From Urechis unicinctus (taxonomy: Eukaryota > Annelida > Polychaeta > Xenopneusta > Urechidae): a stretch of DNA of 64,000 nucleotides. The notes below the pieces were generated by a model. That model was not told where the DNA came from. It worked only from the letters and a program-made list of their open reading frames with translations, and ran no database searches. Both the position numbers and the translations under genes were made by a program. Shown in pieces: positions 5,237 through 64,000 of this stretch. Positions within the stretch are counted from its first letter, which is position 1; each line of letters starts with the position of its first letter. The stretch spans positions 69,303,527 to 69,367,526 of the forward strand of contig CM067344.1 of assembly GCA_034190875.2 (NCBI GenBank), in the 5' to 3' direction.

Positions 5237-6642
5237 CTTGGACTGTGGGTGAATGGCCGAAATATTTAATTGATGGAAATAACTTAATGGAAATTTACAA
5301 ACTGTATAGAAATTAATATAAAGCTGTGAAACTTGAAAAGATATTGTGCACACAACGTGGAAGCAATCAAAATCATTAAAACGTTAACCAAGGCAGGAAT
5401 CCAGGTCGCCTATTGTGTAATTAAATCCATTACAACGTGCTACGGTACGGAAACCAGCCGCTCCACGTGCGTATGTCGCTGTTGATGGGGGCTTGATGCG
5501 AGGTCGGCGTTGTGGTTATTGCATGCGAATTCCGAATTGTCTAACTCACCCTGTACGCCAGATATTGCGGCGCATTGAAACTGACTATGTTGGGATTCGC
5601 ACTATCATACGTTTACTTTTCTTTCCGAATCATGTATTCGCTCTGTCATTTCACTGACAAGACTGTGGTTTTCATTTCTATACAGGAAGAACACGACTTA
5701 ATCTAGGTGATATTAAGCAAATTTGTAAAATGTTATTAGTGAAATTATTTTAAAACAAAAGGGGTAAAATGAAATGAGCTCATCAAATGTCGATTTTCTA
5801 GAATAATTGAAATATCAACCAGTTATTGAGTGCTATCTTGTCTGAATGAATTTCGAGGAATGAAGAACACAATGCTGAGTTGAGGGGCGAAAGATATGAA
5901 ACAGCTTCTAGCTGACCAGTGGTTATTAATTCACAGCTTTACTAGTAAGCCAATCATGGCGTAACTAGGGTTGCATGAAGATAAAAACATAGTCGCTGGA
6001 ATCTTACATTTTTGGTCACAACATTTTATGGTACTGAAAATAGGTTATCAACCAAGGGTTTGAGATGGAAAGAAATATATCTAATATTCCTTTGAGATTC
6101 ATCACCTTGAAAACAATTTTCGTTTTGTGTTGAACAAATCCACCTTTCATCATTTTCTGAGGATTTGTTTATTCTGGACATCAACACATTTGCGTATGCA
6201 ACTGTAAATATAATGTCATAACACACTGTTGGTCATAATGCCAATTGAAGCAGCACTTTGTGGGAATAACGGCTTGTAAAAAAGCATAGATGCATTTAAT
6301 ATCATGGTCTTTCTGACCATACCCCGCATGGCGCCCCATATATCATATTTTGACAGACCCATCTCAATTATAGAATACTGCAGGCAATATCAGTGCTGCA
6401 TGTCATTCCAAAATGAAAATTTAAGTATGATATATGGCGAAGCCTTAAGTGTTTCCTTTTGCAGCGTGGTGAGTTTTCGATTGGTTAACATTGCGAATGG
6501 CGGCAGATTGCTCCATTATATTATATGTTATGTCGTCTACAAAAGTTCTCTACATAAGTAGACTATTTCGTCGGTGAAGTATTCGTCGTCTATCTCAGCC
6601 ATTCCAATCATATTAAATATTGCATCCAGTTATAGCAGCTTT
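5237..6642. other. Gene-free spacer before the THAP element
   Basis: Open frames at 6026-6226 (minus) and 6304-6561 (plus) have no recognised domain. The region from about 6470 could hold upstream sequence of the gene that starts at 6944, but no promoter motif was convincing. Confidence 0.4.
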
Positions 6643-6943
6643 TTAAAGTGCCTATGACACCTAAAATGTGATTTTTGAGTATAAACTGAACAAATCGATG
6701 CGGATCGAATGGTGTTGGAGTTTTTGGCCTCCGATGAATAATAAAAGAGATATTAAACGTTCTTTGGAGCGAAGCGGCATTTCGTGCGTGAGCCGAGGTC
6801 AACCGGAAATGACGCATATAGGGGGTCCCAGTTTCAGCAGCCCAAGTCAGCTTCGATAGATGCGCTGGCGCTGTCAGAGCCTGAGTTTCTTTGCCTACCA
6901 TAAAACCCACGTGAATTTATATCTTGTTTAGTCTGGATCAGTC

Positions 6944-7285
6944 ATGCCAAAAAGCTGCTTGGCCGCGAATTGTTCGAACTTTTCTTCGGAAAGCATTCGA
7001 TTATACATTTCCCCGGGAGGAGAAGTTGCGCAAGCAATGGATATCGCAAGTGCGGCGTACAAGGGCAGATTGGCCGGGTCCGACAACCCACTCGCGTTGT
7101 GTAGCGAGCATTTTAGACCGGAATGTTTTGACCAGGCACTTGCAGTGAGAGAATCTCTCGGATTTGGGTACAAATGTTCCCGAAATATTCTCCCAACTGC
7201 TGTTCCTACCATATTCAAGAGAGGTTGCACGGAATCGCCACCAGTCAGAAAGTCTAAGGCAGTGGAGAAAAGGGAGCACCAAAAG
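6944..7285 (+). CDS. Exon 1: THAP zinc finger with two compensating frameshifts
   Basis: THAP fingers are C2CH DNA-binding modules. Frame 1 opens MPKSCLAANCSN, giving the first Cys pair, and ends LCSEHFRPECF then AVPTIF, giving the Cys-x2-His pair and the C-terminal AVPTIF box. The middle of the domain, with the near-invariant FP and Trp, is instead in frame 2: FDYTFPREEKLRKQW and then RTRADWPGPTTHSR. So the genomic sequence leaves frame 1 near 6990-7000 and returns near 7098, where one T appears to be missing. The two shifts cancel and no stop arises, so the exon stays open but loses the conserved Trp. The 7285/7286 junction AAAAG|GTGAGC is a good splice donor. The ATG at 6944 fits the canonical THAP start. 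Confidence 0.75.
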
Positions 7286-8528
7286 GTGAGCTGACATATT
7301 GCCAAAATCTCTTAGATGTTTACTTTTTCCATAGTTTTATTCTAGTATTGTGAACCACCTGTACTGGAGTGTAGTATCAAGCCCCCCCCTGGAAATGGAC
7401 AGCTGGTGTTGGACAAGTGGCTCTCAATCCTTGACCACATTCAAAATATTCATTCTGGGTTTGGTGGTCTGTTCCAGTCCTATGTTCATCGACCTTTGAC
7501 TGGTCGTGAGAGACGCAAAAGGTGGATCAAGCCAGGTGATACAATATATCATTTTAGAGTTCAGACTAAAAAGACCACAAGTTCCTTAAATTTCCTTGAA
7601 ACACAAAAAAAAAATCTTGCAGTTATATTGCTCTTTACATCCTAGATACATCTTAGATACGAGGTGTGCCATAGAATTGGAAAACATTATCACCAACAAG
7701 AGATTGTGCAAGGACATCAAGAGACTATCAGGCAATGCCCAGACCTCCTACATAGAGGCTTTCCACAGCCTTCTGATCCAGTTTGCTCCAAAAACCTGTG
7801 CTTTCAGTTACCCTGGTCTACTTTGCCGGTAAATCTTTCAACTATCCCAGTCTGCTTAGCTTAAAAGTTGGAACTAGTTAGATTTTACCCTTCTTTCAAA
7901 TGTAGGATTATTGTTGACAAGTGGATCCATAAACAAAAACAAAGTGGAATAAACAAGCCGTTTAATTTCATGAAGTATCTTTCCGCACGTCATTCATTCT
8001 AGTCATGAATAAAGTTAATTTACTGCTGAATCCAACTTATCACAAAACATCCAATAAATCAAACATGAAAAGCACAAACTTATCCTATTTAAAACTGATA
8101 GAAAGGTTCATAAATGATTTCAGATCAATCATTGCAACTATGCATTTCAATGAAAATGCTGGACGACAACAAAGAATAACAGCACAGGGTGGGGACATGT
8201 ACAGCCTCCACTACCCCAAACACAAGGGAGGAGGTCACACAGTGAGGAAAGTGCTGAATGATCCAACGTATGCTAGGGATTGTTTCTAAATTTCACTTTT
8301 ATGTGAAAATTATAATCTGTAATCTCAAATGAACAACTAACACATATATACAATACAGGCTATGTAGAAGATCTTTTGGCAACGACAGTCAGCATATGCA
8401 AGGCCAGTGACATAAATGATGAGGAGATGGAAGCACTGGAGATCCCACCCAATCTCAACTCTATCTTCGAGATCCCAGAAATACACCAAGCAGTTGATCA
8501 GTTCCGCTCACGCTTCTCTAAGTGCTAG
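6944..8528 (+). CDS. THAP-domain, Kolobok-like transposase-related protein, five exons
   Basis: Exons are placed at 6944-7285, 7346-7535, 7657-7828, 8124-8272 and 8359-8528; the total is 1023 nt (340 residues), and all phases agree. Exon 1 is the THAP region. Exons 2-5 carry the order LDKWLSILDHIQNIH, WIKP, LCKDIKRLSGNAQTSYIEAFHS, FAPK, FSY, MHFNENAGRQQ, YPKHKGGGHTVRKV, GYVEDL, which I recognise from memory as the C-terminal part of large THAP transposase-like proteins of fish and marine invertebrates. The usual long central region with the catalytic acidic residues is absent, since exon 2 begins directly with the C-terminal block. Introns 1-3 are GT-AG. The exon 4 donor is not GT (CT at 8273-8274), and exon 1 has a frameshift pair. 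It is probably a degraded or derived transposase. A domesticated DNA-binding gene is the alternative. Confidence 0.65.
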
Positions 8529-9135
8529 TTTCATATCCCACATAATTGTTTGACTCCTCTGGAAATGATTTTCGTATGACTGAAGTTACACAGGATGGTA
8601 TAGGTATGCGATTTTTCTTGCCAAGATAATGGTAGCACCACCGGATAAAATGCTTGTATCCAGTGTAACGCTTCCAGCTGTAACACACAACCATACACAA
8701 ACCCTTAAACATCTTTACAGTGCTGAATAAATATGATATTTCAACCCATACATTGATTTGATGATTGAGTCTCAAAAATAGTGTTATCCTGGTATAAACT
8801 GTATTGATAATTCAGTCTGGATTGAAAACGTCATTCATTTGAGTAAAAATGACCCAGTAGTTTGGGGATTTTTTTCCCAACATAAATTTATAATTTGGTG
8901 TTTGTTGTCTGTCAATACTTACTTGTTTCCCTTGTACGGACCATGATCCTGTTTGTAGGCGTAGTACGCTGTCTCCAATACATCTTCATTAAGACATACA
9001 GCATTAAAATTTGGATGCTGCGTCACACATTTAATTTCTAGTAGATTTTCTATTTTAATCATCACTTTCTCTTGCTCCACACAGCAGACACTTTCCCTGA
9101 CAGTTGGCATGGTTAAGCAGCCTCCACATTGGCAC
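8518..9135 (-). CDS. P2X7 ballast-domain-like protein, last two exons
   Basis: Two exons read on the minus strand: 9135-8923 and 8677-8518, with a 245-bp intron whose GT (8922-8921) and AG (8679-8678) ends are canonical and whose phases match. The first gives CQCGGCLTMPTVRESVCC, then CVTQHPNFNAVCLN and VLETAYYAY. The second gives GYKHFIRWCYHYLGKKNRIP, IPSCV, IRKSFP, NNYVGY and then a TAG stop. This is the Cys-rich pattern of the cytoplasmic ballast of P2X7 receptors, which binds zinc and guanine nucleotide in the mammalian protein. The channel part is not present, and such domains also occur alone in invertebrate proteins. The acceptor at 9136-9137 implies an upstream exon, which I could not find. 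Both exons look intact, unlike the facing gene. Confidence 0.75.
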
Positions 9136-9939
9136 CTGAAACCAGGGTTTCAAAAACCTATCAAATACATGCCAAACTCTGTCTAAGACATAGTCTAAGA
9201 TTTTTCGCTAAGTTCGTTGGCGAATACAAACCTTATTCCATAACACCAAGAAAAACGAAATCGATATCAAATGATGCGACCAATATAAAATGCATAGTTT
9301 CGTGATGATTATAATTCGACTAAATGTTTTGAAGACGGTCATGTTCGGATTATCGCCTCTCGGAACACGTGAATAGTGTCACTATGTGTCGGACAGATAT
9401 GGGAATCTGTGTACAATGAGCTACATCCTCTTTATTCTCAAACATTTGAGGCTCCAGCATCACCGTCCAATAATCGTCAAATTCGATAAATTGTCACCAT
9501 AGTGTTATGTGTACATGGGCTGTTGAGGCTTTTATATCTATGCCAGCATCAATAATCGTGATTGCGAGTCAACATTGATATCGTTGAGTGCCTTCACTTA
9601 TAAAAGCCGGTTATAAACATTACCTCTTCCAAACTCATCTACCGTTTTGAATTTGGTGGCGTTTACCTCTTCCAGGTTTAAATCACTTTTTTCAATCATA
9701 AGTTTTTAGTTGCCCAATGTGCTTGCTTTAGCTAGTCCCCTCACCTCATTTTACACAGTATGTATGATCGCATGCAATAAATTGCTATAAATGGATACGG
9801 CATTTAGTTTTTCAATATTTCTGCAAGTAAGATGTATGAAAAATAACACGCGAACGATATTTCTTCAGCTCCTACTAAATTTCGACATCACTAAAAGACT
9901 GCATACACAGAAAGATTTTATTGCTGCTGTCCTTGTCTT
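9136..9939. other. Spacer upstream of the ballast-domain gene
   Basis: No further exon of the minus-strand gene was recognised. The string CAGTATGTATGATCGCATG near 9758 recurs near 21669, and the segment around 9796-9815 resembles 39827-39846 (TACGGCATTTARTTTTTCA). This suggests dispersed repeat sequence. Confidence 0.35.
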
Positions 9940-10010
9940 CGTTTTATGACTAAACCCAGATACTTATCCTTCCTTTAGTAGTCATAAAACCCGATATTCC
10001 CATTATCTCA
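9940..10010 (+). repeat. Tail fragment of the SINE-like repeat
   Basis: The segment with AAAACCCGATATTCCCATTA matches the end of the SINE-like copy at about 19540-19910 (AAAACCCGAATATTTCCATTA), and both are preceded by an AGTA/AGTC-rich stretch. Only the tail part is recognisable here. Confidence 0.4.
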
Positions 10011-10439
10011 CAGCCAATCTCCTCGAAATGGCAGTTGGACTGTATCTCTCGAACATGCAGACAAGGTGACATGTTGATCTGTCATGCCACATCACTTCAA
10101 TCCATCCCAGTTATAATAGAGCAACTGCTCTCTAGGTCTGATTGTGAGCAGCACAAAATTTAAAAAAAATATAGCTTTGTGAATCTATTACCAACAGTAT
10201 ATAACCACGTCAATACGAGTAGCGTGCGCTTAAGTCACGACATAGTTCGCGGGGTAGGAAAAAGAACAAGGAAAGATGGGGCAATTTAAAAGCCTCACAA
10301 AGTGCATCCAAGCAACAAATATTGCAATCAATCCGGTCACTGCATGTAAGCAACCATGTAGAAATTCCATGGCAGATAATCAAATAGGGCTGAAATATGC
10401 TGACATATTGGCATATGAAACTTGACATCCAACTAATTC

Positions 10440-20457: not shown

Positions 20458-21550
20458 GTTACTGTGGAAAGTGGAAGGGACTCAGAAAACTAGCCCTTCA
20501 CCTAACTATTACTGTGGAAAGTGGAAGGGACTCAGATAACTAGCCCTTCACCTAACTATTACTGTGGAAAGTGGAAGGGACTCAGATAACTAGCCCTTCA
20601 CCTAACTATTACTGTGGAAAGTGGAAGTGACTCAGATAACTAGCTCTTCACCTAACTATTACTGTGGAAAGTGGAAGTGACTCAGATAACTAGCTCTTCA
20701 CCTAACTATTACTGTGGAAAGTGGAAGTGACTCAGATAACTAGCCCTTCACCTAACTTCACTCCTAGCTCTTCACCTATTACTGTGGAAAGTGGAAGTGA
20801 CTCAGATAACTAGATCTTCACCTAACTATTACTGTGGAAAGTGGAAGTGACTCAGATAACTAGCCCTTCACCTAACTATTACTGTGGAAAGTGGAAGTGA
20901 CTCAGATAACTAGCTCTTCACCTAACTATTACTGTGGAAAGTGGAAGTGACTCAGATAACTAGCCCTTCACCTTACTATTACTGTGGAAAGTGGAAGTGA
21001 CTCAGATAACTAGCTCTTCACCTAACTTTTACTGTTACTGTAGCTCTTCACCTAAAAGTGGGAAGTGACTCAGATAACTAGCCTTCACCTAACTATTACT
21101 GTGGAAAGTGGAAGTGACTCAGATAACTAGCTCTTCACCTAACTATTACTGTGGAAAGTGGAAGTGACTCAGATAACTAGCTCTTCACCTAACTTTTACT
21201 GTGGAAAGTGGAAGTGACTCAGATAACTAGCTCTTCACCTAACTATTACTGTGGAAAGTGGAAGTGACTCAGATAACTAGCTCTTCACCTAACTATTACT
21301 GTGGAAAGTGGAAGTGACTCAGATAACTAGCTCTTCACCTAACTTTACTGTGTGGAAAGTGGAAGTGACTCAGATAACTAGCTCTTCACCTAACTCTTTA
21401 CTGTGGAAAGTGGAAGTGACTCAGATAACTAGCTCTTCACCTAACTACTACTGTGGAAAGTGGAAGTGACTCAGATAACTAGCTCTTCACCTAATTATTA
21501 CTGTGGAAAGTGGAAGTGACTCAGATAACTAGCCCTTCACCTAACCCACT
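20458..21550. repeat. 50-bp minisatellite, about 21 units
   Basis: Unit starts ACTGTGGAAAGTGGAAG, then TGACTCAGATAACTAGC, then TCTTCACCTAACTATT. The period is exactly 50 bases over most of the array (20461, 20511, 20561 and so on). The first three units carry GGGACTCAG. From 20611 the units carry GTGACTCAG. Two rearranged junctions occur at about 20752-20780 and 21028-21075. CCCTTCA and CTCTTCA variants alternate, suggesting block-wise spread. No reading frame is maintained. Confidence 0.97.
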
Positions 21551-55717: not shown

Positions 55718-57080
<1,363 letters not shown>

Positions 57081-57589
57081 ATTATGTATATATGATTGTA
57101 CCCTCTCGACTAGCTACTACAGTGGAAATATGCTGTAAGCTTGGCCAATAAATGCACAAATGTTGATTGAATCGTCGACTTGGATTACCTTTTTTTTATT
57201 AATGTTTTTCATGATGGTTCAGGTTTGCATCATATTCACTAGAAAATACTTGAAAGCTTGAAAAGAGTGAATCTGTTTCATAATAGGTGATCGCGCGCCG
57301 CACATTCTCACAAGTACTGGACAAAAAAACTACTCTCTAGTTTGCTAAACTGAACGAATATTATGACCGCTGACGTGTCAACGTGATGGGTTGCAAGGCT
57401 GAGGCTAAGCACCTTAGTGTGCTACACATTCCTATCACAACCCGGTCTGCTATGATAAAAGTATTAGGTGATTGGCATATTGTAATCATACGCATATTAA
57501 GCGATTTTATGGAACACTTTTGTCACTGTGTGGTCAGATATATACTTGGTTTCAAAAGGCAATATCTTGTTATATGTTATGAATGTTCA

Positions 57590-57780
57590 ACCAACTGGAG
57601 GTGGGTTCGATCCCTATGTGCGATAGCCTTACTGGCAACTCATGACTCGGATGATGACAGTAAATGGTGGTCCCAGGTGTGTCTTTGTAGAACCTTCATT
57701 CGAGTTGCATGGGTTTGCAAGCCTTGCACGGGAAACCGTTTGCCGCCACATGGCCGTTTTAAAGTGCCTTTCGCAAGGTT
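57590..57780 (+). repeat. tRNA-derived SINE-like element, copy 2
   Basis: Contains a good B box (GGTTCGATCCC at about 57606), then CTGGCAACTCATGACTC and ACCTTCATTCGAGTTGCATGG, in the same order as the copy at 19540-19910. Its A box region is not clear. The frame 57383-57784 that spans it is not a gene. It lies immediately upstream of the decayed THAP-element gene. Confidence 0.45.
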
Positions 57781-57829
57781 ATAGGTACTTCGCTGAAACT
57801 AATTCATAACGTGATCAATTAACTCAAAC

Positions 57830-58740
57830 CGGTCCAATAACCGTCGCATCTGATCAGCAAAGGCTAAAAGTTCAAAAACAATTCAGCTCAAATTAGCGCG
57901 ATCGACGATCGCTACGGCAGCCATGATCTAGGTCAGACCCAGAGGTGTGACGTTTACTTGGTTCATTAAACCGAGGGATGTTTTGAGCAGGCAACGAAAG
58001 AGAAGAGCTTGGTTGGATACCACGTTGTAAGCTGGTCGTAAAGACAGATGCTGTACTCTTTTCGCGAAGGCCTCTGTTGTCAGGCAAGCAAGATAGGGTG
58101 GTGAGACAAGTGATCCTCTGCCATCCCAGGCCAGAAAAAGTATATCTGCATCGGTTGAAGGTATCCATAGTTTGATTAACCACTCCCCACAAGATGCTGG
58201 TCTTCTTCTACGCGGGCATGGTCGCCTGGAAAGTACTATTGTTATAATATAATTCGTTGCTTATTACAGTGCTCCTTCATTGTGGTGTTTGTATATACTG
58301 AATTAAGTTTGTTTACTTGTGGTTGCATGCCAAATAAATGTGGGTCACGTATGATTGGTTCATTGTATCACAGAGTAAGACTGGGTGCCCTCTACTACAA
58401 TGAAAATGGGGCAAGAGACCAGGCGGCAACAGAATCGAGGGATCCAGTCTTCAAGCTTAGATACCTCACGTTTAAGCTGGGACATGTTTTCACAAAAGTA
58501 GCAACAAAGGCAACATTTTATGAATATTTGGACATTAAACGATAACAAATTCCCTTACCATGGGGTTAAAAGGTTGTAAGCGACAGTCTGTGACTTGTCA
58601 GATTCCTGTTATGTTTCAGAATATGTGGAATGCCAGATGTCTGAATTCCCGCTGGTTTGCTATGAGCCAATCCTGCCCAAGACAGAAGCATCACCTCAAC
58701 TGAGCAATATCAGACAACTGACTTTTCCGCAAAGTAAGTG
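57830..58740 (+). pseudogene. Second, decayed copy of the THAP-element plus-strand gene (exons 2-5 only)
   Basis: Exon 4 equivalent at 58374-58522 reads RLGALYYNENGARDQAAT, LRYLTFKLGHVFTKV and TFYE. It has an AG acceptor in the same phase and exactly the 149-bp length of exon 4 in the copy at 8124-8272. Exon 3 equivalent ends at 58228 and reads SVEGIHSLINH, then, after a frameshift, HKMLVFFYAGMVA; its donor is GAAAGT instead of GTAAGT. The same frame has a TAG at 58094-58096. Exon 2 remnants near 57896-58022 read SHDLGQTQRC and AGNEREELGWIP. The exon 5 equivalent starts after AG at 58619 and reads EYVECQMSEF. No THAP exon is found. It cannot encode a working protein. Confidence 0.6.
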
Positions 58741-63497: not shown

Positions 63498-63572
63498 AGT
63501 AATGGATAAGAGGAACATTATTCCAAGCAGGTTAGGCACCCTTATTAGTCTCTGGACGACAGAGTCAGATAC

Positions 63573-64000
63573 CCTGACCAGTCACTGAACGATTGAATGA
63601 GACAACTAGATTGGTCACTGAAAGATGGAGTGAGACACCCTGACTGGTCACTGAAAGATGGAGTGAGACAACCTGACTAGTCACTGAAAGACGGAGTGAG
63701 ACACCCTGACAGGTCACTGAAAGATGGAGTGAGGCACCTTGACTGGTCACTGAAAGATGGAGTGAGACACCCTGACTGGTCACTGAAAGATGGAGTGAGG
63801 CACCTTGACTGGTCACTGAAAGATGGAGTGAGACACCCTGACTAGTCACTGAAAGATGGAGTGAGACACCCTGACTGGTCACTGAAAGATGACGTGAGAA
63901 ACCTTGACTTGTCACTGGACAATAGAGTGAGACACCCTGACTGGTTACTGACAGATGGAATGAGACACCCTGACTGGTCACTGAAAGATGGAGTGAGACA
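63573..64000. repeat. 33-bp minisatellite, about 13 units, runs off the window
   Basis: Unit GGTCACTGAAAGATGGAGTG then AGACACCCTGACT. The 33-base period keeps an open minus-strand frame (63981-63565) whose translation is the 11-residue unit VTSQGVSLHLS with substitutions. Units are closely similar, suggesting recent expansion. The open frame can be explained by the stop-free unit alone. Confidence 0.95.

Follow-up and report, generated by a model that had tools for sequence, protein, structure and literature searches.

A degraded transposon copy in Urechis unicinctus, very probably a KolX-carrying Kolobok element, with transposase and KolX genes that meet tail to tail

The closest described relatives of the locus analyzed here are DNA transposons of the Kolobok superfamily. 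According to the accessible parts of PMC6004289, Kolobok transposases usually carry DDE, THAP and H2CH motifs, and the elements use TTAA targets and have RR ends, which read AG in the tabulated Xenopus copies. Within this superfamily, accessible passages of another report describe Kol0 elements that encode a transposase plus a second protein, KolX, which has the fold of the P2X7 ballast and from which the tail of P2X7 is reported to derive (Kojima and Bao, 2022; PMC9587614). The same passages describe KolobokP, in which the transposase lies on one strand and a His-Me finger nuclease is encoded downstream on the complementary strand (PMC9587614). Ballast proteins have been found across animals, accompanied in invertebrates by two linked markers close by, as given in the available portion of a third report (Rump et al., 2020; PMC7016195), the main text of which contains no word beginning with 'transpos'.

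The window discussed below is a stretch of 64,000 nucleotides from the annelid Urechis unicinctus (GenBank assembly GCA_034190875.2, contig CM067344.1, forward strand positions 69,303,527 to 69,367,526). It contains a tandem array with a 50-bp unit in about 21 copies at 20459-21545, to which longer periods also fit, a second array of 13 copies of a 33-bp unit (a multiple of three) that runs to the window end at 63562-64000, and a long AT-rich simple repeat at 55718-57077, with a GC content of 0.258 in 56001-58000.

There is little doubt in our minds that positions 6643 to ~9454 of this window represent one degraded Kolobok element, a DNA transposon of the cut-and-paste type that belongs to the KolX-carrying Kol0 lineage of this superfamily, a putative membership that is based on KolX and on the motifs of the transposase (Table 1).

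Table 1. Features of the transposon copy in the window (positions are those of the window)
Feature	Position	Strand	Basis or remark
TTAA, left side of target-site duplication	6643..6646		Sequence; same TTAA at left end of C1 and C2 copies
Left terminal inverted repeat, starts AG (5'-RR), AGTGCCTATGACACC...	6647..6665	+	Terminus comparison with C1 and C2 copies
Transposase exon 1, THAP finger, frame-shifted inside relative to C2 copy	6944..7285	+	Exon end by eye
Junction of 1,500-bp internal deletion	7343..7344		Comparison with C2 copy
Transposase exon remnant, between second D and E, frame-shifted near start	7346..7535	+	Limits by eye
Transposase exon with presumed catalytic E (SYIEAFHSLL)	7657..7828	+	Start from AG of C2 copy
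Transposase exon, IIATMHFNENAGRQQ...	8124..8272	+	Sequence, ORF list, comparison with C2 copy
Last transposase exon, stop TAG 8526-8528	8359..8528	+	Sequence, ORF list
Overlap of convergent transposase and KolX coding ends	8518..8528		11 bp; kept in 27 of 30 copies
Last KolX (ballast) exon, stop 8520-8518	8518..8677	-	Splice acceptor by eye
Middle KolX exon, cysteines CQCGGC...CC...C	8923..9135	-	Splice sites by eye
Eroded first KolX exon and part of intron before middle exon	9226..9454	-	Comparison with C2 copy

A sequence-only reading of this DNA had reported two convergent frames whose coding ends share positions 8518-8528, and both the sequence and the list of open reading frames confirm this: the plus-strand frame ends in ...RSRFSKC before a TAG stop at 8526-8528, and the minus-strand frame ends in ...YVGYETST before its stop at 8520-8518. 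An overlap of 11 bp characterizes the window family and goes beyond chance, because both stops fall within the same 11 bp in 27 of 30 copies (29 others plus the window copy); the exceptions, L061, L063 and L067, each lack one of the stops. The pair could also be explained as a transposon fragment that happens to converge on a host ballast gene unrelated to it, an account for which nothing speaks beyond the damaged state of the window copy, and to which we give almost no credence, since these copies, at many places in the genome, repeat the pair together with its overlap and so refute it.

The copies of the degraded transposon were obtained by searching 1.19 Gb of genome sequence. With window positions 6600-9700 as a DNA query, the 40 best of 1234 candidates were scored and all 40 match, one of them being the window itself, which leaves at least 39 other places. 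Thirty loci were excised, and the 29 besides the window's own (L040-L068) match the window at 87-94% in the genome DNA search. Comparison with two whole copies, C1 and C2 (named after their contigs), gives 98.4% identity to C2 for window positions 6643-7344, 98.6% to C1 for the same part up to 7335, and 96.9% to both for positions 7344-9260. Over the longest piece aligned to L040, 16 of the 28 other copies are 98.0-99.5% identical to it and the remaining 12 are at 93-95%; this high mutual identity, as far as sequence can tell, speaks for recent movement. At four places (C15, C13, C6, C12) the position corresponding to window 7327 is joined straight to that corresponding to 7576, a deletion that these places have in common.

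The whole copies C1 and C2 start with TTAA-AGTGCCTATGACACC and finish with its inverse and then TTAA, so the 4-bp TTAA target-site duplication is present at both of their ends, whereas in the window copy only its left side is visible. These termini, 5'-AG ... CT-3', fit the pattern 5'-RR ... YY-3', and the right end of the C2 copy is 95.7% identical over 23 bp to window positions 6643-6665 in inverted orientation. The exact right-end motif was found in 22 of 29 copies, with TTAA next to it in 21 of these, and was absent from the other 7. Across the genome, the exact 19-mer TTAAAGTGCCTATGACACC has 325 matches (151 forward and 174 reverse), and its reversed control has 0. Among the first 100 of these sites listed, 18 neighboring pairs face each other at less than 8 kb; 7 of them span 4.56-4.78 kb, which is full length (a whole copy measures 4.68 kb), another 10 cover 1.1-3.3 kb and the last one 5.9 kb. 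The shorter and longer pairs, the interiors of which are mostly unread, are as expected for internally deleted or enlarged derivatives. The repeats, the shared ends and the whole copies together bear out the proposal of that reading that a THAP transposase and a ballast-domain partner are encoded tail to tail by a two-gene transposon.

The right terminus of the element was not found in the window. With up to 3 mismatches allowed, the terminal motif matches the window only once, exactly and at the left end (0.53 such matches in the window would be expected by chance), and the right ends of C2, L045, L060, L065 and L067 show clear similarity to the window no further than 9454, the position at which clear similarity of the window copy to other copies stops. 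An alignment of window positions 9501-9900 to the terminal portion of the C2 copy does not stand out from shuffled controls (128 of 200 shuffles score as high), and in a DNA search with positions 9200-10400 the best 40 of 347 candidates match only 9200-9454, the window itself excepted.

The coding content of the whole copies shows what an undamaged member carries. On its plus strand, the C2 copy has a THAP finger, the motif of the first Asp, DGRADSPGHSAKYG, a further exon that includes TDRH and DIWH, and C-terminal exons with SYIEAFHSLL; its minus strand has three KolX exons. The DDE/DxxH motif names in this copy (DGRADSPGHSAKYG, TDRH and DIWH) were assigned by eye, and the E in SYIEAFHSLL is presumed from its position to be the catalytic E of the DDE core. 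A MULE transposase domain is matched in the TDRH/DIWH exon with an E value of 9.5e-5 and 23.2 bits, under the cut-off of 27.6. The THAP domain (PF05485) reaches 61.4 bits in the C2 copy and 24.2 bits in the window exon from 6944, barely above the Pfam cut-off of 23.9. For the exon with SYIEAFHSLL, the window also offers an alternative AG at 7644-7645. Comparison of the transposase C-terminus with a protein database gave 1 match among 12 candidates, an uncharacterized protein of Branchiostoma lanceolatum with 51% identity, and Rfam has no match in the window at gathering thresholds.

The ballast domain of KolX is recognized by its likeness to PF20478 and to P2X7 chains, and so it is a predicted one. 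On the minus strand of the window, P2RX7_C (PF20478) scores 27.5 bits in 8521-8775, where the cut-off is 23.5, and 15.4 bits, under the same cut-off, in 8919-9137; the open frame of the last KolX exon extends to 8775. When joined, the KolX exons of the window match P2X7 residues 477-592 weakly (E 0.017), and the KolX of another family in the same genome matches P2X7 chains and structures with E values of 4e-18 to 3e-17.

Measured against the C2 copy, the window copy is heavily damaged. It lacks 1,500 bp at 7343/7344 that include both catalytic Asp regions and the DIWH (DxxH) motif, so the DDE core with its C/DxxH motif is present in the C2 copy and absent, as part of the deletion, from the window. 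The junction creates a chance AG that resembles a splice acceptor, which is why the THAP exon and the next exon can be read as one gene; both are partly frame-shifted relative to the C2 copy. The splice donor after the exon at 8124-8272 is CT in the window copy versus GT in the C2 copy. Mismatches to the C2 copy amount to 2.2% in 7346-9225 and to 19%, along with nine small deletions, from 9226 through the first KolX exon.

A sharp break is therefore visible in 9226-9511, where mismatch leaps from about 2% to 19% and more and small deletions are many. This end may derive from an older copy by conversion, or it may have been poorly repaired; conversion is proposed because the window end has a small feature in common with L060, L065 and L067.

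Given the 1,500-bp deletion, the internal frameshifts and the eroded right end, the pair cannot be read as intact genes in the window copy, which is, to judge from its remaining coding content, dead or at best non-autonomous. The loss of the DDE core and the lack of a recognizable right end indicate that it can encode no functional transposase and that it is, most likely, unable to move. Its state is one of decay and not a new arrangement. This damage also bears on whether the two genes might be a domesticated host pair of transposon origin, for which there is precedent in reports, as far as their accessible passages go, of domesticated Kolobok transposases (PMC6004289) and of the KolX-derived host proteins P2X7 and Nanor (PMC9587614). 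Domestication is nevertheless very hard to credit here, since the copies that the window copy matches at 97-98% identity are close to one another, and yet the window copy has suffered a 1.5-kb deletion, frameshifts, the loss of a splice donor and erosion of its first KolX exon.

The association of KolX with a convergent transposase extends beyond the family of the window copy. A count of convergent pairs at other loci, which the sequence-only reading had suggested, shows that at 26 of the top 30 ballast loci of the host genome a transposase piece lies downstream on the opposite strand within 1.5 kb when family-specific queries are used. The queries for two other families were drawn from L009, L010 and L013, which match by construction, and the count for the remaining loci is 23 of 27. 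Of the 30 loci, three yielded no partner, and all that was recovered at L015 is from the window family and lies on the same strand. Queries built from the exons of the window family itself brought up few convergent partners, owing to the distance of the other families. The pair thus recurs at many loci, and the prospect raised in that reading, that the two families co-occur only here by accident, does not hold.

The other families can be tied to that of the window in steps. Family B (L009, L013) is connected to it through DDE pieces, both Asp regions of L013 showing 40-48% identity, and family C (L010) is linked only via family B, at 42% identity; compared directly, family C and the window family show no significant match (best E 0.17). 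Of nine L010-type loci, five (L010, L011, L012, L016 and L023) have 6 bp between the stops of KolX and the transposase, L022 has 25 bp, and in L030 a broken frame displaces the stops; in L014 and L018 the stop codons of the pair were not located. Tail-to-tail packing is hence special neither to the window copy nor to its family. Two loci have more complex arrangements: at L015:1495-3096 the KolX of another family has transposase pieces of the window family beside it on the same strand, probably through nesting of elements, and L017:1582-3419 holds a pair of unlike KolX genes in facing orientation, about 1.1 kb apart, of which one is closer to the window family.

For intact members of these Kolobok elements, family membership suggests that the transposase would bind the element ends through its THAP finger, and that the DDE core would cut the element and join it into TTAA, a reaction that would produce the duplicated TTAA seen in the flanks. 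KolX, read from the other end, would be an accessory factor, our best guess being a protein-protein or DNA scaffold in the transposition complex. The two genes run inward from both ends of the element, so that their tails come together in its middle, and in the window family the final codons overlap by 11 bp. It is conceivable, and in our judgment unlikely, that this abutment is a selected and old trait of KolX-bearing Kolobok elements, with convergent read-through leading to dsRNA or to mutual interference that limits transposition; across families, the abutment is an 11-bp overlap in the window family versus a 6-bp gap in the L010 type.

As an element, this is an ordinary discovery, a broken copy of a known kind. 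Its value lies in the P2X7 ballast module, which appears here as a transposon protein convergently paired with a Kolobok transposase at many loci of one genome, a pairing that fits the published view that the P2X7 tail was taken from a transposon. In addition, the young and repeated KolX families provide material for testing the job of KolX.

The sequence-only reading had suggested a form of element not described before, and the two convergent genes do lie within common ends, as they would in a new type of two-gene transposon with the ballast protein as a new accessory factor. We consider such a type highly improbable, and that suggestion falls away, because the combination of a transposase with a ballast-fold KolX has been published under the name Kolobok Kol0 in accessible passages of PMC9587614, and THAP, DDE, TTAA and RR termini are Kolobok traits in the available parts of PMC6004289. 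The passages of PMC9587614 at hand hold no statement on the orientation of KolX relative to the transposase in Kol0, which may be published nonetheless, and no description of close tail-to-tail packing in KolX-bearing elements was found in the portions of the literature searched.

The likeness to Kol0 (type Kolobok-1_XT), as that type is described in the accessible passages, includes a THAP transposase with a DDE core and DxxH, a ballast-fold second protein, TTAA duplication and RR termini, and the window copy differs in that its DDE core and right end are absent. Like KolobokP, the window family has a second protein encoded convergently on the complementary strand downstream of the transposase, but this protein is KolX and not a nuclease; the long terminal direct repeats of the KolobokP type (about 450 or 660 bp) are absent from C1 and C2, whose self-comparison reveals short inverted ends only. 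With the C-terminal ballast of P2X7 and with Nanor (ZCD proteins), KolX shares a ballast domain by sequence, and it differs from them in that no channel domain is seen in the window-family element and in that it is encoded by a repeated element.
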